A stretch of 64,000 nucleotides of DNA. Origin: Longilinea arvoryzae. Lineage in GTDB: Bacteria; Chloroflexota; Anaerolineae; Anaerolineales; Anaerolineaceae. The notes under the pieces were generated by a model. The model was not told the origin of the DNA, did not search any database, and saw only the letters and a program-made list of their open reading frames with translations. The translations under genes were made by a program, and so were the position numbers. Positions within the stretch are counted from its first letter, which is position 1. The number at the start of each line of letters is the position of its first letter. Below, piece after piece: positions 41,970-49,874 of the stretch. The DNA lies in contig NZ_DF967972.1 of the NCBI RefSeq assembly GCF_001050235.1, forward strand, positions 1,378,475-1,442,474, written 5' to 3'.

Positions 41970-42527
41970 ATGAACGAAACATTGAACGTTATTCATAATC
42001 GGCGCAGCATCCGCAGCTATACGCCGGAACCGATTACGGATGACGAACTGCACGAAATCATCCAGGCTGGCATCTATGCTCCCAGCGCTCGCAATTCACA
42101 GGACTGGCACTTCAGCGTGGTGCGCGACGCGGCGGTGCTGGGCAAATTAAAAGAGATCATGAAGGAAAACATGCTGAATTCGGGCGTCGAGTTTCTGACC
42201 AAACGCGCCAGCGAGCCCGGTTTCGTGGCCTTCTTCGATGCACCCATGCTGATCCTCCTCTCGGCGGACGAGAAGGAACGTTTCGCGGCCATCGACTGCG
42301 GCGCCGCGGCCGAGAATATCGCCCTGGCGGCCGAATCGCTCCACATCGGCACCTGCCTGATGACTTCATCTGAACTGCTGTTCGCCAGAGATGCAGATGG
42401 CAAATTGAAGAAATCCCTGGGCATCCCGGACGGGTACCGACACGTTTGTGCCCTGACCGTTGGTCACAAGGACGGCGAACAGCCTGCTCCCGCGCCCAGA
42501 AAAGAGAATCTGGTCAATACGATCTGA
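41970..42527 (+). CDS. Nitroreductase-family FMN flavoprotein
   Basis: A 185-residue nitroreductase of the NfnB/RdxA-like superfamily, using FMN and NAD(P)H to reduce nitro compounds or quinones. The N-terminal FMN-phosphate motif is HNRRSIRSYTPEPI (R11, R12, S13, R15), with APSARNSQDWHF and the ENIALAAESLHIGTCLMTS helix-loop typical of the fold. Physiological substrates of the family vary widely. AAGGAG lies 7-8 bp before the ATG; a TATAAT at 41881-41886 lacks a good -35. It is followed by the T-box leader of pheS but separated from it by that leader's own promoter. Confidence 0.9.
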   Translation: MNETLNVIHNRRSIRSYTPEPITDDELHEIIQAGIYAPSARNSQDWHFSVVRDAAVLGKLKEIMKENMLNSGVEFLTKRASEPGFVAFFDAPMLILLSADEKERFAAIDCGAAAENIALAAESLHIGTCLMTSSELLFARDADGKLKKSLGIPDGYRHVCALTVGHKDGEQPAPAPRKENLVNTI

Positions 42528-42578
42528 GGCTAGAGGCGGCGCCATGTCTCGTTCAGCGTTGCCGGCCCGAAACGCCCC

Positions 42579-42606
42579 TTGACAAGGGCGGTCTTTTGTC
42601 GATAAT
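42579..42606 (+). promoter_or_regulatory. Sigma-70 promoter of the pheST operon
   Basis: TTGACA (42579-42584), a 16-bp spacer and GATAAT (42601-42606). The predicted transcription start is near 42613, at the 5' end of the T-box leader. Confidence 0.85.
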
Positions 42607-42612
42607 AGAGTC

Positions 42613-42899
42613 CACATTATGAATCAAAGGCTGTGACGGAGAAAAGTAAGCCGGCGCTAACGCCCAGGGAGGCAGGGGCATTGACTGAGACCCTTGCCGC
42701 GTGAAGTCCGGATGAAGTTCCCTCCCGAGCCGCTCAGGGGAAAGCCCTTTCCGGGCGAGTAGTTTGAGACGCAATGCCAGCGTTACAGGGCAAACCAATC
42801 GCCAGACAGGCTGGCCGTTGGAGTGAGTGGACCCGAAAGGTCAAACAGGGTGGTACCGCGGATAAAAACCGTCCCTATCCAGGGACGGTTTTTTGTTTT
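42613..42899 (+). promoter_or_regulatory. T-box riboswitch (tRNA-Phe sensing) controlling pheST
   Basis: The leader carries the T-box core AGGGTGGTACCGCG at 42848-42861, whose TGGT bulge would pair with an uncharged ACCA acceptor end. A structured stem I follows the promoter, with an AGTA-type loop segment (about 42645-42648), and a TTC (Phe) codon at 42718-42720 is the likely specifier. The T-box is followed directly by the terminator at 42864-42899; the 5' part of its stem can instead pair with the T-box to form an antiterminator. Known T-box logic predicts read-through into pheS when tRNA-Phe is uncharged. Confidence 0.92.
42864..42899 (+). terminator. T-box regulated intrinsic terminator
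   Basis: A 13-bp stem (42864-42876 with 42881-42893), loop atcc, followed by a T-rich tract. Confidence 0.92.
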
Positions 42900-42942
42900 A
42901 ACCACGGATGATCCGTGAAGCAGGAGAGATGAAGGAGGTTCC

Positions 42943-43986
42943 ATGAGCGAAGGTAACGATATCCTGACCGAGTTGGATGCGATTCGACAGCGCGCGATCG
43001 ATGCGTTGGCTGCGGTGCAAGATGAAAACACATTGCAAACCTGGAAGACGGCCCACCTGGGCCGCTCGGCGGCCGTGATGCAGATTTTCAGCCAGATCGG
43101 GCAGGTGGATAAGGCGCTGCGCGGGCAGGTGGGTCAAAAGGCCAACCAGGTGAAGCAGGCGCTGGAAGCCGCGCTGGCCGAAAAGGAACAGGCCGTGCGC
43201 GAGGCCGTTCTGGCGCGCAAGCTGGTTGCCGAGAAGTTGGATGTGACTCTTCCGGGGCGCAAGCCGGCCTACGGGCGGCTGCATCCGGCGACGCTGGCCC
43301 TGGAAGATATCTGCCAGAACCTGATGGAGATGGGTTTCCAGATCTATCGGTCGCCTGAGGTGGAAACGGACGAGAACAACTTCGAGCTGCTCAACATCCC
43401 GGCTTACCATCCGGCGCGGGACATGTGGGATACCTTCTACACCACGAAACCGGGCGTGCTTCTGCGCACACATACCTCCCCGGGGCAGATCCGGGCCATG
43501 CGCCAGGTGGCGCCCAAACCGCTGCGCGCGATTCTGCCGGGCATGTCCTACCGCTACGAGCAAACCGACGCCAGCCATGAGTCGCAGTTCGACCAGGTGG
43601 AGGTGATCGCGGTCGGCCCCGGCATTACCTTTGGTGACCTGAAGGGTATGATCGAGGACCTGGCGCACCGCATGTTCAGCCCGGACGTGCACATTCGCCT
43701 GCGCCCGTCCTACTTCCCCTTCACCGAACCCAGCGCTGAAGTCGATATCGAGTGCTTCATTTGCGGCGGCAAGGGCTGCGCGGTTTGCAAGGGCGGCGGC
43801 TGGCTGGAAATCGGCGGCTGCGGCATGATTCACCCGACCGTGCTGCAAAACGGCGGCTACGATCCGTCCAAATTCTCCGGTTTCGCCGCCGGCTTGGGTC
43901 CCGAGCGCATTGCCATGCTGAAATACCACATCGAAGACATCCGCTATTTCTGGGGAAATGATGCGCGGTTTTTGGAGCAGTTTTGA
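42943..43986 (+). CDS. pheS: Phenylalanyl-tRNA synthetase alpha subunit
   Basis: The 347-residue catalytic subunit of the (alpha-beta)2 enzyme that charges tRNA-Phe. An N-terminal coiled coil (about 1-90) binds tRNA. The class II catalytic core shows motif 2 in LRAILPGMSYRYEQTDASHE, FPFTEPSAEVDIEC and motif 3 in GFAAGLGPERIAMLKY. A four-cysteine loop (CFICGGKGCAVC) near residue 270 is common in PheS of many bacteria. AAGGAGG precedes the ATG. The subunit partner pheT follows, but separated by an inserted four-helix-bundle gene. Expression is under the T-box. Confidence 0.97.
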   Translation: MSEGNDILTELDAIRQRAIDALAAVQDENTLQTWKTAHLGRSAAVMQIFSQIGQVDKALRGQVGQKANQVKQALEAALAEKEQAVREAVLARKLVAEKLDVTLPGRKPAYGRLHPATLALEDICQNLMEMGFQIYRSPEVETDENNFELLNIPAYHPARDMWDTFYTTKPGVLLRTHTSPGQIRAMRQVAPKPLRAILPGMSYRYEQTDASHESQFDQVEVIAVGPGITFGDLKGMIEDLAHRMFSPDVHIRLRPSYFPFTEPSAEVDIECFICGGKGCAVCKGGGWLEIGGCGMIHPTVLQNGGYDPSKFSGFAAGLGPERIAMLKYHIEDIRYFWGNDARFLEQF

Positions 43987-43990
43987 AGGA

Positions 43991-44040
43991 AGTGATGAGT
44001 GAAGAGTGAAGAGTGAAGCGTGAACAGTAAAGTGTGATGA
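43991..44040 (+). repeat. Simple-sequence gtgaagagtgaagagtga tract before the four-helix-bundle gene
   Basis: A low-complexity direct repeat of gtgaaga(g)-type heptamers that begins 4 bp after the pheS stop and ends where the inserted gene's reading frame opens. Similar but not identical words (gtgatgagttgatgag) recur at 48430-48446. Confidence 0.7.
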
Positions 44041-44051
44041 GGCAAAGAACC

Positions 44052-44576
44052 ATGAACGATCAAACCGCGGGACAAAACACCGATGCCGGCATTGAAGGCT
44101 TGTTGGTATGGCGAAAAGCCATCGATCTGGCGGTGTATCTATGTCACGATGTGCTGCCGACTTTCCCGGATTATGAACGATATGCACTTGCCAATCAACT
44201 CCGCCGTTCTGTTCAGAGTGTACCGGCAAATATCGCAGAAGGATATGGCAGGTTCTACTATCAGGAGGCCGTTCGGTTCTGTTACATTGCACGGGGCTCA
44301 TTGGAAGAAACGCGTACTCATTTAGTCCTGGCATCTAGACTGGGTTATATCAATACGGATGTCTTCCAACAACTTGATCGTCACGCTGTGGAAATTCGAA
44401 GCCTTCTCAATGGATACATTTCGTTTCTGAAGCGATCAAAACGGGGTATCAACGAGCCGGGTTCTACGATAAACGAACCATCCGGATTCTATTCCACCGA
44501 TTCCCTAGAAGATCTTGATGAATCTTCTCTTCCTCAGAACTCAGAACCCATTGACTCAGAACTTGATAGTGAATGA
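44052..44576 (+). CDS. Four-helix-bundle (S23/Avd-like) protein inserted between pheS and pheT
   Basis: A protein of about 174 residues. Residues 15-130 match the small four-helix-bundle family (TIGR02436, S23 ribosomal-protein-like), with LLVWRKAIDLAVYLC, the LANQLRRSVQSVPANIAEGY signature and EETRTHLVLASRLGYI. Relatives are encoded in intervening sequences of 23S rRNA and as the Avd protein of diversity-generating retroelements; the free-standing form has no agreed function. GAGG precedes the ATG at 44052. The last 45 residues are low-complexity and come from simple-sequence DNA (ctcagaac repeats). It separates pheS from pheT, which are normally adjacent, so it appears to be an insertion now riding on the T-box operon. 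Confidence 0.88.
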   Translation: MNDQTAGQNTDAGIEGLLVWRKAIDLAVYLCHDVLPTFPDYERYALANQLRRSVQSVPANIAEGYGRFYYQEAVRFCYIARGSLEETRTHLVLASRLGYINTDVFQQLDRHAVEIRSLLNGYISFLKRSKRGINEPGSTINEPSGFYSTDSLEDLDESSLPQNSEPIDSELDSE

Positions 44577-44589
44577 AAAGGAACACAAC

Positions 44590-47124
44590 ATGAAAATACC
44601 CCTTTCCTGGCTGAAAGATTACATTGATATCGACCTTTCGGTCGAGGAGCTGGCGCGGACACTGACCAACGCCGGACTCGAGGTGGAAGAGATTACCCTG
44701 ATCGGGCTGCCGCGGGTCGAAGGCGAGCGGCGCGAGTTCAAGATGGACGGGTTGAGCTGGGAGCCGGACAAGATCGTGGTGGCGCAGATCAACGAGGTCA
44801 TGCCGCACCCGAATGCTGACCGGCTGACACTGTGCCGCCTGGACGACGGCACGGGCGAATCGGTCGTGCTGACCGGCGCGCCCAACCTGTACGAATATAA
44901 GGGCAAAGGACCCCTGCCCAAACCGCTCAAGGTGGCCTATGCCAAAGAGGGCGCCCGAATCTACGACGGCCACCAGCCCGGGCAGGTGCTGACCACGCTC
45001 AAGAAGGCCAAGATTCGCGGCGTCGAATCCTCCTCCATGGTGTGTTCGGAAAAGGAACTGGGCATCTCGGAGGAGCACGAAGGCATCATCCTCCTGGATG
45101 ACGACGCACCCACCGGCATGCCTCTGGTGGACTACATGGGCGATGCCGTGCTGGAGCTCTCCATCCTGCCGAACATGATCCGCAACGCCAGCGTGATCGG
45201 CGTGGCGCGCGAACTTTCGGCTGCCACAGGCAAACCCCTGCACAAACCCCAGCCCGAATTGGATCCGAACGGCCCCAGCATCGCCGGCCAGGTCAGCATC
45301 CAGATCGCGGACCCGACCCTCAACCCGCGCTTCGTACTCGGCCTGGTGCGCGGCGTTGAACCCCGACCCAGCCCTTACAAAATTCAGCGCCGGCTGCGCC
45401 TGGCGGGCATGCGTCCCATCAACAGCATCGTCGACGCCACCAACTACATCATGCTGGCCACCGGCCAGCCGCTGCACGCCTTCGATTACGACGTGTTGGT
45501 GAAACGCGCCGGCGGCAAGGCGCCGACGATCATCACCCGTTCGGCGCAGGCCGGCGAAAAACTGACTACATTGGATGGCGCAGAACGCACGCTCGAACCG
45601 GTTACCATCCTGGTCTGCGATACCGCCGGCTCGCTTTCGCTGGCTGGTGTGATGGGCGGGCAGGAGAGCGAAGTCACCGACTCCACGCGCAACGTACTGG
45701 TGGAAAGCGCAAGCTGGAACTTCATCAACGTGCGCCGCACGACCACCTACCTGCACCTCAGTTCCGAAGCCGGTTACCGCTTCGGGCGCGGCGTGCACCC
45801 GGCCCTGGCGCCCTACGCCGCCCAACTCTGCATGGCCTGCCTGGTCGAATGGGGCGGCGGGCAAATGACCCGCGACCTGGTGGATGCCTACCCGCGGCCG
45901 GTTGTCGATCCGACCGTCGAACTCGCGCCCAAGGACGTGATTCGCATGCTGGGCATAGCCATTGCCCCGCAGGAGATCGTCGGCATTCTCGAACGGTTGG
46001 GTTTCACCTGCCGCATCCAGGGTGATACGGTGATCGCCAAGGCACCGCCCAACCGCCTGGATATCGGCGAGGGGATCATCGGCAAATCCGATTTGCTGGA
46101 AGAGGTGGCCCGCATCTACGGCTACAACCGCATCCCGACCACGCGCATGGCGGATCCGCTGCCCGAGGCGCACCTGCGCCCTGAACTGACCCTGGAAACC
46201 AGCCTGCGCCACGCGCTGGCGCGCCTTGGAATGCAGGAGGTGATCAATTACCGGCTGACCTCTCCGGAGCGCGAGAAGCTGCTGTACCCGGCCGGCCAGG
46301 AACCCGCCGCGCCCGAATATATCCGCCTGAAGAACCCGCTCTCACCCGAGCGTTCGGTTATGCGGCGCAGCCTGCTGGCCTCGGTGCTGGATACGCTCGA
46401 GAAAAACGCCCGCCTGCGCGACCGTCTGGCAATTTTCGAGATCGGACCGGTGTTCGAACCCCGGGCTGACCAGGTGCTGCCGGATGAGCCCGTCAAACTG
46501 ACCATGGCGATCACTGGAACGCGCCTGCCGCAGGCCTGGGACCGCAAAGACACGGCAAAATTCGATTTCTATGATTTGAAGGGTATCGTTGAAGGAATGC
46601 TGGAACAGGTGCACGCGCAGCAGGTGCATTTCGTCGCGGCCGGTTACCCCAGTTACCATCCGGGCATGTGCGCCGAGGTCTACGCCGGTGAAACCCGGCT
46701 GGGCGTGATCGGCGAACTCCACCCACTGGTCAAGGAGCGCTACGATTTCATGGCGCCCCCAGTGATGGCGGCCGAATTCGACGTCAAGGCGCTGCTGGCG
46801 GCGACCACCAGCCATTACGACACGAGCGGCGTTTCGACCTTCCCGCCGGTGCTCGAGGACATTGCGCTCATCGTGGATGAGTCAGTGCCGGCCGATCAGG
46901 TTGAACGCCTCATCCGCCAGACGGGCGGCAAGTTGCTGGCCGATGTGCGCCTGTTCGACGTCTTTCGTAGCGAACTGATCGGCGCCGGCAAGAAAAGCCT
47001 GGCTTACAGCCTGACCTATCAGGCGCCGGATCGCACGCTCAACGATCAGGAAGCCTCGCAGTTGCGCGGGCGCATCGTGAGACGGCTGGAGATCGAATTG
47101 GGCGCGAAACTGCGCAGCAATTAA
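44590..47124 (+). CDS. pheT: Phenylalanyl-tRNA synthetase beta subunit
   Basis: An 844-residue beta subunit, near the usual length of about 800. From the N terminus: a first domain (MKIPLSWLKDYIDID), the OB-fold tRNA-binding insert (about 45-200), the B3/4 editing domain (about 210-410, with RPINSIVDATNYIMLATGQPL), the B5 domain (about 430-500), a catalytic-like core (about 510-730) and the C-terminal FDX-ACB anticodon-binding domain (PPVLEDIALIVDE onward). AAAGGA lies 7 bp before the ATG at 44590, which starts 13 bp after the inserted gene. It shares the T-box-controlled transcript. Confidence 0.97.
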   Translation: MKIPLSWLKDYIDIDLSVEELARTLTNAGLEVEEITLIGLPRVEGERREFKMDGLSWEPDKIVVAQINEVMPHPNADRLTLCRLDDGTGESVVLTGAPNLYEYKGKGPLPKPLKVAYAKEGARIYDGHQPGQVLTTLKKAKIRGVESSSMVCSEKELGISEEHEGIILLDDDAPTGMPLVDYMGDAVLELSILPNMIRNASVIGVARELSAATGKPLHKPQPELDPNGPSIAGQVSIQIADPTLNPRFVLGLVRGVEPRPSPYKIQRRLRLAGMRPINSIVDATNYIMLATGQPLHAFDYDVLVKRAGGKAPTIITRSAQAGEKLTTLDGAERTLEPVTILVCDTAGSLSLAGVMGGQESEVTDSTRNVLVESASWNFINVRRTTTYLHLSSEAGYRFGRGVHPALAPYAAQLCMACLVEWGGGQMTRDLVDAYPRPVVDPTVELAPKDVIRMLGIAIAPQEIVGILERLGFTCRIQGDTVIAKAPPNRLDIGEGIIGKSDLLEEVARIYGYNRIPTTRMADPLPEAHLRPELTLETSLRHALARLGMQEVINYRLTSPEREKLLYPAGQEPAAPEYIRLKNPLSPERSVMRRSLLASVLDTLEKNARLRDRLAIFEIGPVFEPRADQVLPDEPVKLTMAITGTRLPQAWDRKDTAKFDFYDLKGIVEGMLEQVHAQQVHFVAAGYPSYHPGMCAEVYAGETRLGVIGELHPLVKERYDFMAPPVMAAEFDVKALLAATTSHYDTSGVSTFPPVLEDIALIVDESVPADQVERLIRQTGGKLLADVRLFDVFRSELIGAGKKSLAYSLTYQAPDRTLNDQEASQLRGRIVRRLEIELGAKLRSN

Positions 47125-47132
47125 GCGAAGAT

Positions 47133-47444
47133 AGCCACAGAGTACACAGAGAACACAGAGTAAAACCTGTAGGTCGGGTTGGAGGGGGAAGAATGCCAAT
47201 AAGTGATATGGGTATTTACTTCCCCCGTAAACCCGACGTCCAAAGACGTGGCGTAGACGTCGGTTCTCCGGGGAGAGCATGAGACCAATAACGGCATGTC
47301 TCTGCCACCGCCAAAGAGGAATCAACCACAGAGACATTATGCCCGAAGGGTACAGAGTAAACGGAGAAGATAATAAGAAAGAAGAGGAGATCATCTCCTC
47401 TTCTTTCTTCGATATTCTCTGTGTTCTCCGTGACCTCTGTGGCT
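47133..47444. repeat. 312-bp inverted-repeat element (CACAGAG ends) after pheT
   Basis: Two 28-bp ends (47133-47160 and 47417-47444) are inverted copies matching at about 25 of 28 positions, built from CACAGAG words. Inside are a degenerate third copy (about 47324-47365), a 19-bp-arm hairpin (47173-47191 with 47219-47237, 16 of 19 paired) and a perfect 35-bp palindrome (arms 47375-47391 and 47393-47409, one-base centre). No gene fits inside. The right end supplies the stop codon of the convergent aldo/keto reductase gene. It looks like a non-coding miniature mobile or REP-like element; the family is not identified. Confidence 0.8.
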
Positions 47445-48405
47445 ACTTTTCTTCCAATGGGCTGATGATGCGGAAAATCTCATCCACCAGCTCTTCGCTG
47501 AGCTGTTCGTGGGCCTCGATCGCGCCCAAATTTTCATCCAACTGCTCGATGCGGGTGGCGCCGGTGATCACACTGCTGACCTCTTTACGGCGCAGGATCC
47601 AGGCAATGGAAAGCTGCGCGGTGGTCAGGTCGAGGCTTTCGGCCAGGGAAGTAAGCTGGCGCACCGCCGCAATGCGCTCGGGGGTGATCTGGTCGCGAAT
47701 CCAGCTCATCTCGGGCAGGGTGGCACGCGAGCCGGCCGGAATGCCGTTGTTGTACTTGCCGGTCAGAATGCCGTAATGCAACGGGCTCCAGGTGGTCAGG
47801 CCTATGCCCAGTTCACGGGCGACGGGCATCAGGTCGTTCTCGACGCGTTTGCGATGGAACAGGCTGTACTGGGGCTGCTCGGCGGCCAGTGGAACCAGGT
47901 TGTACTGGCGGGCCGTCCCGTAGGCCTGCGTCACCTGGGATACCTCCCATTCGGAGGTGCCCCAGTAGAGCACCTTCCCCTGATGCACCAGGTCGTCCAT
48001 GATGCGCACCACCTCTTCGAACGGCGTGTCGGGGTCATAGCGGTGGCAATAGTACAGGTCGAGGTAGTCGGTATCCAACCGTCGCAGGCTGGCATGAACA
48101 GATTCGAAGATGTGCTTGCGCGACAGACCGCGCCCGTTGGGGCCCGGCATGGTGGGCCAGAAGACCTTACTGGAAAGCACCAGCGCCTCGCGGGGCAGGC
48201 CTTTGATGGCCTTGCCCAGCGCCACTTCGGCTTTTCCCCCGGCGTACATGTCCGCCGTGTCGAAGAAGTTGACGCCCTGGTCGTAGGCCGCGCGGATGAT
48301 ATCAATGGAAGCCTGTTCATCCACCTGGTTGCCGAAGGTGACCCAGGAGCCCAGCGATATTTCGGATACTTTCAGGCCGGTCCGGCCAAGTCGTCGGTAA
48401 TGCAT
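47443..48405 (-). CDS. Aldo/keto reductase (potassium-channel beta-subunit-like)
   Basis: A 320-residue NADPH-dependent aldo/keto reductase of the AKR family that includes Kv-beta subunits and YghZ. The TIM barrel begins HYRRLGRTGLKVSEISLG. Tetrad residues are visible in NFFDTADMYAGG (D, Y), LVLSSKVFW (K) and LYYCHRYDPDTP (H). The VITGATRIEQLDENLGA segment binds the cofactor. GGAG precedes the ATG at 48405. The stop codon lies in the terminal repeat of the adjacent element, so the last codons may have been altered by its insertion. Substrate unknown. Confidence 0.9.
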   Translation of the reverse strand: MHYRRLGRTGLKVSEISLGSWVTFGNQVDEQASIDIIRAAYDQGVNFFDTADMYAGGKAEVALGKAIKGLPREALVLSSKVFWPTMPGPNGRGLSRKHIFESVHASLRRLDTDYLDLYYCHRYDPDTPFEEVVRIMDDLVHQGKVLYWGTSEWEVSQVTQAYGTARQYNLVPLAAEQPQYSLFHRKRVENDLMPVARELGIGLTTWSPLHYGILTGKYNNGIPAGSRATLPEMSWIRDQITPERIAAVRQLTSLAESLDLTTAQLSIAWILRRKEVSSVITGATRIEQLDENLGAIEAHEQLSEELVDEIFRIISPLEEK

Positions 48406-48420
48406 GGTATTTCTCCGTAA

Positions 48421-48536
48421 GAGTTGATGCGTGATGAGTTGATGAGGTCTGAGGGAAGCCTCTGAATTATTTTCCCAAGCCTTTATTATCATAACTCAGA
48501 ACCCATAACTCATAACTCAGAACACATCACCTTATT
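48421..48536. repeat. Low-complexity intergenic segment with ctcagaaccc repeats
   Basis: About 115 bp between the aldo/keto reductase and kamA. It contains gttgatgcgtgatgagttgatgag (in part at 48423-48446) and tandem ataactcagaac(cc) words at 48491-48525. The same 13-mer actcagaacccat occurs at the 3' end of the four-helix-bundle gene (about 44539-44551). It may be an empty or decayed relative of that insertion. Confidence 0.55.
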
Positions 48537-49874
48537 TCACTTTTCCTCGCCCGGACCAATCCCGAGCGGCTTCCATTTGCTCGAATCGGCGCGCAGGCGA
48601 TGTTCGCCGCCGCCGCGATTGTGCAGTTCGTCGAAGCCCTCGGGTTTGATGAACATCTCGTCGCCGTCCAGCAGGCCGGTGATACCGATCTGGCCGGGCT
48701 CGACGCGTTTGTTCTTGCAGTACTCGCAGGTCTTGGGATCGTGTGGCTTGTAATTGATCGGCTCCTCGTAGGTGGTGACGTAACCTTCGTAGTTGCGCAG
48801 GATGATCTTGTGGTCCGACATGCTGATCTGATAATTGGGCATCAGTGGGATCTTGCCGCCGCCGCCAGGCGCGTCGACGACGTAGGTGGGCACCGCAAAA
48901 CCGGAGGTGTGGCCGCGCAGCCCTTCGATGATCTCGATGCCCTTGGCCACCGGCGTGCGGAAGTGCCCGGCGCCTTCCACCAGGTCGCACTGGTAAAGGT
49001 AGTATGGCCGGACGCGGATGCGCACCAGGTCCTGCACCAGCTTGCGTTGAATGTGGACGCAGTCGTTGACGCCGGCCAGCAGCACGGACTGGTTGCCCAG
49101 CGGAATGCCGGCGCGGGTCAGCCGGTCGGCTGCCTGAGCCAGCTCGGCGCTGATCTCGTTGGGGTGGTTGACGTGAATGTTCATCCACAACGGGTGATAC
49201 TTTTGCAGCATATCGCACAGCTCGGGGGTGACGCGCTGGGGCATGAAGACCGGCACGCGCGATCCGATGCGGATGATCTCGATGTGCGGGATCTCCCGCA
49301 AGCGCATCAGCAATTCCTCGAGGATTTTGGGCGCCAGGGTGAGCGGGTCGCCGCCGGAGAGCAGCACATCGCGAACCTGGGGGGTGCGGCGCAGGTAATC
49401 AAGTTGGGCTTCGAAATCCTGGTGCGAGAAAGTCGCGCTGGGATCGCCGACGATGCGCGAGCGTGTGCAGTAGCGGCAGTAGGAGGCGCACTGCGTGGTC
49501 ACCAGCATCAGCACGCGGTCGGGGTAGCGGTGCACCAGGCCAGGCACCGGTGAATGGCGGTCTTCGGCCAGCGAATCTTCCATCATCCCGGTGAAGGGCA
49601 CGATTTCATCTGCGCGGGGCACGACCTGCTTGCGAATGGGATCGTCCGGGTCGTTCGGGTCGATCAGCGAAGCATAATAAGGGGTGATGTCGACGCGGAA
49701 CAATCCCTGCGTCGTCAGAGCTTTGCGTTCGCTGTCGGTGAGGTTCAGGACTTTTTCGAAATCCTCTGCGCTGTTCAGGCGATTGCTCAACTGCCAGCGC
49801 CAGTCGTTCCATTTTTCGTCAGGCACATCCTGATAGATGGGGGCGCGTTTAGAAATGAAAGGGGAAGGGGTCAT
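48537..49874 (-). CDS. kamA: Lysine 2,3-aminomutase
   Basis: A 445-residue radical-SAM, PLP-dependent aminomutase converting L-lysine to beta-lysine. The cluster motif is CASYCRYC (C129, C133, C136), the PLP-binding lysine is K341 in DAPGGGGKIP, and two acidic residues that bind the substrate side-chain amine in the clostridial enzyme are kept (D297 in CDLVEGAGHFRT and D334 in VVDAPGG), which favours lysine over glutamate as substrate. A C-terminal zinc-type CEYC region is also present. No ablB acetyltransferase for beta-lysine osmolyte synthesis is adjacent. A promoter at 50083-50111 gives a leader of about 200 nt of unknown class. Confidence 0.95.
   Translation of the reverse strand: MTPSPFISKRAPIYQDVPDEKWNDWRWQLSNRLNSAEDFEKVLNLTDSERKALTTQGLFRVDITPYYASLIDPNDPDDPIRKQVVPRADEIVPFTGMMEDSLAEDRHSPVPGLVHRYPDRVLMLVTTQCASYCRYCTRSRIVGDPSATFSHQDFEAQLDYLRRTPQVRDVLLSGGDPLTLAPKILEELLMRLREIPHIEIIRIGSRVPVFMPQRVTPELCDMLQKYHPLWMNIHVNHPNEISAELAQAADRLTRAGIPLGNQSVLLAGVNDCVHIQRKLVQDLVRIRVRPYYLYQCDLVEGAGHFRTPVAKGIEIIEGLRGHTSGFAVPTYVVDAPGGGGKIPLMPNYQISMSDHKIILRNYEGYVTTYEEPINYKPHDPKTCEYCKNKRVEPGQIGITGLLDGDEMFIKPEGFDELHNRGGGEHRLRADSSKWKPLGIGPGEEK

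Follow-up and report, generated by a model that had tools for sequence, protein, structure and literature searches.

Within the window (the whole 64,000-nt stretch of DNA that was analyzed), an S23/IVP gene lies between pheS and pheT of the phe operon and is bracketed by tandem arrays of 7-bp units, or heptads. A second heptad element, lacking a gene, lies further downstream between LAM and AKR. The features are as follows:

42624-42879, + strand: T-box leader of the phe operon, 5' of pheS (Rfam RF00230, 98.2 bits, E 2.1e-21)
42943-43986, + strand: pheS, whose stop codon is the 5' border of the cassette (TIGR00468, E 3.5e-89)
43991-44041, + strand: 5' heptad array, about seven AGTGAAG-type units (TRF period 7, 7.3 copies, score 60)
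44052-44576, + strand: S23/IVP four-helix-bundle gene, 174 aa (PF05635, E 9.8e-33; TIGR02436, E 9e-32)
44533-44563, + strand: 3' heptad array, CTCAGAA type (TRF period 7, 4.3 copies)
44590-47124, + strand: pheT, with the 3' border of the cassette shortly 5' of its start codon (TIGR00472, E 3.2e-195)
48421-48531, - strand: heptad element without a gene, at the LAM-AKR junction (TRF hits at 48421 and 48489)
48537-49874, - strand: LAM, lysine-2,3-aminomutase-like (80-88% match to the LAM of relatives; Pfam LAM_C on the L082 orthologue)

The genes pheS, IVP and pheT are co-directional on the + strand. An earlier note on this DNA had proposed that an S23-type gene splits pheS from pheT, with a gtgaaga-type tract on its 5' side, ctcagaac repeats at its 3' end and no transposase inside. 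The gene was confirmed: the ORF extends from the ATG at 44052 through the stop at 44576, passes the curated cut-off of PF05635 (113 bits against 33.8, profile positions 3-106 of 106) and matches PDB entry 2gsc (E 7.8e-18). The 5' tract was recovered as the array at 43991-44041, which begins 5 nt past the pheS stop codon and shows 29 of 35 matches at lag 7; among control stretches of 350 nt, a lag-7 score of 21 was reached in only 4 of 476. The 3' tract is weaker (lag-7 score 18) and, as the note had it, lies in the end of the reading frame, which reads through the array at 44533-44563, with a unit of 7 bp rather than 8. Likewise, no transposase was found inside the cassettes. A promoter and terminator scan of the window cassette gave results at chance level, with none of the cassette's own, and the T-box was the only Rfam match within 42300-48700. 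Just 3' of pheT lies an inverted pair of 9-bp-period repeats of the CACAGAGTA type (47132-47160 and 47417-47445; 29-nt arms, 90% complementary). In other families (L055, L060), the gap between pheS and pheT is taken up by a comparable 9-bp inverted pair, and such pairs are possibly a second class of period-based hairpins.

The distribution of the gene was surveyed in 147 Anaerolineaceae genomes, with the window genome designated G000. An IVP match was present in 64 genomes, and in 22 of them, from 8 genera, the gene was located at pheS-pheT, always co-directional with pheS; most other assembled pheS-pheT junctions had a gap of less than about 60 nt. Universal presence in relatives, which the earlier note had offered as grounds for rejecting its proposal, was thus not observed. 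All 22 pheST IVPs and the LAM-AKR copies of genus g39 formed one clade (support 100/100), and the sister genome G070 carries the gene at the same pheST position, indicating that the pheST gene is mostly inherited here and that insertion at this site need not be recent. The notion of the window copy as a recent arrival is not supported, given the same two results. No close empty relative was found for the window pheST copy. The window IVP had a dN/dS of 0.066 relative to G070, and values of 0.02-0.20 were obtained for other IVP pairs in which dS was computable; the window protein is under strong purifying selection. Furthermore, the window arms are not complementary beyond chance (score 8 against a shuffled mean of 7.8). 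The window copy is old, and its arm complementarity has been lost.

Taken together, the single clade, the uniform orientation, the conserved gene shared by G000 and G070 and the degenerate arms would all be expected if the gene were a resident of the phe operon, vertically inherited and often lost, with incidental repeats. We regard this alternative as doubtful, since the gene occurs in a minority of genomes scattered over 8 genera, since the same clade occupies LAM-AKR in g39 and since two genomes with nearly identical surroundings differ in the cassette itself. In G026 and G015 the pheST flanks are 93.9% and 93.5% identical, yet the IVP proteins share only 41% identity and the heptads differ, with similarity stopping at the pheS stop codon and returning just 5' of pheT. 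To judge from these borders, the entire cassette has been swapped at pheST. For the most part, then, the pheST site has been inherited within this lineage, apart from losses and one or more swaps. Elsewhere in the window genome, a second IVP gene of a distant lineage (C1:805845-806141) also lies between heptad arrays, and beside it (L003, G000:C1:805.3-805.7 kb) are four near-copies of a roughly 100 bp unit with GCTGAAT heptads. In other families of the order, a 224-nt pheS-pheT gap with inverted heptads (L063, G158) holds an apparent decayed N-terminal remnant of an IVP gene, and gene-less GGTC-type heptad tracts lie between pheS and pheT in L056 and L057.

The gene-less element at LAM-AKR consists of CTCAGAA-type heptads, the same as in the window cassette, with arms at 48421-48453 and 48493-48531 that are 79% complementary over 19 nt, and its border is the LAM stop codon. 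Relative to the window genome, the arrangement is reversed in the g39 genomes G125, G135, G138 and G134, in which an IVP-bearing element is located at LAM-AKR and a gene-less element at pheST, and the LAM-AKR junction of G137 is empty. In 5 of 5 genomes tested, the pheST heptads best matched the LAM-AKR heptads of their own genome; the match was clear in G138 (27 vs 8-12) and weak in G000 (16 vs 11-15) and in G135 (25 vs 22-23, against close relatives). These sequence matches suggest local copying or concerted change of the two arrays.

Anatomy of the class was examined by scoring lag-7 self-matches in IVP flanks as the best score per 35 nt. Beyond the family, a cross-phylum set of 80 loci was picked by protein similarity to Anaerolineae IVPs, spanning Clostridia, Bacteroidota, Planctomycetes, Acidobacteria, Proteobacteria, candidate phyla and one archaeon. 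For the 102 family loci the mean best lag-7 score was 24 of 35 on either side, compared to 14-17 at lags that are not multiples of 7, and in the cross-phylum set (n=83/79) it was 22.3/22.9 compared to 15-17. An array was present on a given side of about three quarters of IVP genes (80/103 and 76/103). Where both family arrays scored at least 21 (66 loci), the inverted match exceeded the direct match in 63, and 44 of the 51 cross-phylum loci with two strong arrays were inverted as well. Inverted matches within a locus averaged 21.4 in the family and 19.4 across phyla, whereas direct matches within a locus averaged 7.3 and 8.9, and inverted matches to other loci 8.7 and 7.2. The two arrays of one locus are thus usually inverted copies of one motif, and the motif varies among loci. 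Furthermore, the 5' arrays are AG-phased on the coding strand (59:15 and 37:4) and the 3' arrays CT-phased (61:7 and 39:8), giving an upstream consensus heptad of (T)AG plus four variable bases, its complement downstream, and a largely fixed polarity. In a typical element, two arrays, usually of 4-8 heptads each, enclose an S23/IVP gene that is about 120-180 codons long. The expectation that the same tracts recur at the borders therefore stood as regards period (7 bp), inverted order and TAG polarity and failed for the motif, which differs at almost every locus; the flanks of homologues differ in sequence, as the earlier note's opposing prediction would have it, but not in architecture.

Where both flanking genes point the same way, the cassette shared their direction in 70 of 73 cases in the family and in 46 of 55 across phyla (70:3, 46:9). 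In most co-directional family cases the array starts within about 16 nt of the upstream stop codon. This near-zero distance arises in part by itself, since repeated TAG heptads place a stop codon in every reading frame; the native gene ends are nevertheless retained in pheS, in LAM and in the plasmid gene at the first cyanobacterial site described below. The genes 5' of cassettes are varied and include pheS, lysine-2,3-aminomutase, gyrB, yidC, neuB, a pglZ gene, a lyase with an adenylosuccinate-lyase C-terminus, and others. At one locus (L138) the cassette lies directly 3' of gyrB, and at another (L169) it is flanked by the PglZ and BrxL genes of a BREX-like defence locus. At 20 other loci, most with weak or oddly oriented arrays, no Rfam-type rRNA hit was present, and insertion into rRNA was rejected for them. 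A search of 50,697 phage records gave no IVP homologue, which leaves carriage by phages unsupported there.

Filled and empty insertion sites were compared in cyanobacterial plasmids that are 92-97% identical, with one conjugative plasmid type for the first site. In Aulosira and Tolypothrix the first site is empty and reads AAAAAGTAATTAACAAATAATTATG, i.e. AAAAAGTAAT directly followed by TAACAAATAATTATG. In Trichormus and Scytonema it is filled and reads AAAAAGTAAT, then AAATCAGAATTCAG...S23...CTGAGTTCTTCTTTG, then TAATTAACAAATAATTATG; the borders are AAAAAGTAAT-(AAATCAG...S23...CTTCTTTG)-TAATTAACAAATAATTATG, with about 97% identity to the empty site and with TAAT, or GTAAT, as the duplicated bases. 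A gene-less heptad element occupies this first plasmid site in Brasilonema (L214). At a second site, in Nostoc plasmids, the empty sequence GGTTCTAGGTTATG corresponds to a filled GGTTCTA-(AATCAGG...CTGGA)-TTCTAGTTATG, with a target duplication of TTCTA. In strain N6 (L212 vs L213), an S23 gene contains a gene-less heptad element that has TTGA at either end. Clean insertions thus carry target duplications of 4-5 bp (GTAAT, TTCTA, TTGA), all exact ones being from cyanobacterial plasmids; unclean borders with no readable duplication were seen at sites B and C and in the second gap of L216. These data support insertion at the DNA level with a short staggered cut.

Based on these comparisons, the window gene probably (roughly 0.75) represents a class of small mobile elements that are not autonomous and in which an S23/IVP gene lies between heptad arrays, the window copy being old and inherited. 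The earlier suggestion of a small mobile cassette with repeat ends accordingly holds in large part for the class, as supported by the plasmid sites and the G015/G026 swap.

A second alternative likens the cassette to the 23S rRNA intervening sequence (IVS), but at the level of mRNA: the arms would pair, RNase III would excise the hairpin and the arrays would be kept for RNA pairing. In the 428-nt IVS of Coxiella, which is the precedent, tandem GACAGAT heptamers precede an S23 ORF, the termini form an inverted repeat of 28 bp and excision is by RNase III (PMC4990558). The cassettes resemble the 23S IVSs of Coxiella and Leptospira in gene family, approximate size, inverted-repeat ends, sense orientation in a transcribed unit (70:3 in the family) and sporadic distribution, with heptamers before the ORF in Coxiella (PMC4990558), and the motif shared by the two arms of one locus would also suit RNA pairing. 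The cassettes differ in lying between protein genes, in having heptad arrays at both ends across phyla, in their 4-5-bp target duplications and in the existence of gene-less versions. We consider excision from mRNA unlikely: on the transcript, G-U mismatches between the arms do not outnumber those of A-C type (51 vs 76), and thus give no sign of selection for RNA pairing, and folding of the window copy is not better than that of shuffled sequences, with no enclosing hairpin (z +0.93). The window copy lacks the complementary, stem-forming ends of a 23S IVS and lies between pheS and pheT rather than inside an rRNA gene.

The TRAP ring binds UAG/GAG repeats in RNA. By analogy, the heptad array could be the RNA target of an S23 pentamer, with the gene autoregulated and mobility secondary. 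The solved relatives of the S23/IVP protein, 2gsc (XCC0516) and 2rld, have five chains each, and the XCC0516 structure has been described as a homopentamer (PMC4990558). The 5' arrays keep (T)AG plus four variable bases at fixed spacing and usually comprise 5-6 units, although unit counts are partly set by the 42-nt window used and the AG-rich strand may only supply ribosome-binding sites. The complementary 3' array and the gene-less elements are left unexplained, and this account appears rather improbable. Least credible of all is that the heptamers are general slippage-prone intergenic satellites and that IVP genes are merely located where repeats are common, an account that draws on the heptameric repeats over-represented in many bacterial genomes (PMC4692102) and on the about 40 lag-7 arrays in 400 kb of G000, most away from any IVP, but that conflicts with the frequency of arrays beside IVP genes (80/103 and 76/103 vs 4/476 control stretches), the shared inverted motif and fixed polarity of paired arrays, and the insertion of whole units with target duplication. 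Repeat density was estimated from 400 kb in each of two genomes, G000 and G141. In a search of G141 for heptad-bracketed genes other than IVP, HEPN/MNT-like and nucleotidyltransferase-like ORFs were found near arrays and were not clearly bracketed by one inverted heptad pair; at G141:C34 257300-261500, a cluster of heptad arrays surrounds such MNT/HEPN-like and nucleotidyltransferase-like ORFs, with several IVP genes adjoining.

In the mobile-element reading, the arrays would be terminal inverted repeats recognized by a putative trans-acting recombinase. The comparisons place elements just past the stop of a co-directional gene, mostly in operons, with the 4-5-bp target duplication in young copies and with gene-less versions at the same kinds of place. 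The host operon would drive transcription of the cassette, under control of the phe T-box in the window copy, and selection would presumably maintain the protein. Under this hypothesis the S23 ring would most likely bind to the heptad array at the DNA or RNA level, with protection, packaging or regulation of the element as its role; a ring reading evenly spaced (T)AG triplets could explain why the period and the triplet are kept and the sequence is not. In a non-systematic look, no candidate mobilizing enzyme with heptad ends was found. Transposases of the Y1_Tnp class leave no target duplication, and the five Y1_Tnp matches in the window genome, mostly weak, were set aside for that reason. 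Avd is a small four-helix-bundle protein of diversity-generating retroelements and resembles the S23/IVP protein in this respect; the window genome has no match to RVT_1 (PF00078), the reverse transcriptase that a role as accessory gene of such a retroelement would call for. A broader proposition, which we advance tentatively, is that S23/IVP cassettes may be a new kind of transposable element of bacteria and archaea whose ends are read by the 7-nt (T)AG-N4 period and the inversion instead of a constant sequence, with the S23 pentamer as the reader. Neighboring elements of one genome would then often have arrays with a common motif, as though these had been rewritten jointly.

Among known elements, MITEs are similar in being short and non-autonomous, with inverted ends, short target duplications and gene-less copies. 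Terminal inverted repeats are present in the class and degenerate in the window copy, and the short duplication is seen between filled and empty sites of the cyanobacterial plasmids. Unlike in MITEs, the terminal repeats are 7-mer arrays that vary in sequence among copies yet are self-complementary, many cassettes carry a conserved gene under purifying selection, and no parent transposase is known. Intergenic arrays of variable 7-bp units have likewise been described as heptamers in Nostoc, Calothrix and Xanthomonas and as TAACTGA in Beggiatoaceae, as known and unexplained repeats; the portions of these reports consulted make no connection with S23/IVP genes or with a defined element that inserts (PMC4692102, PMC4679880). 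In the open-licence literature, no link of S23/IVP genes to inverted heptad arrays outside rRNA was found, which is weak evidence of novelty, nor was insertion of S23 cassettes into protein operons found described.

Genes for S23/IVP proteins (annotated 'four helix bundle protein') are common in bacteria and have no known function or reason for their placement in the searchable literature. The inverted arrays and target duplications would turn this orphan family into a definable mobile element, and the cassettes offer an origin for part of the unexplained intergenic heptamer repeats. The rRNA intervening sequences would become part of a larger class, and the function of S23 is now directly testable, both as binding of the array and as a requirement in movement.
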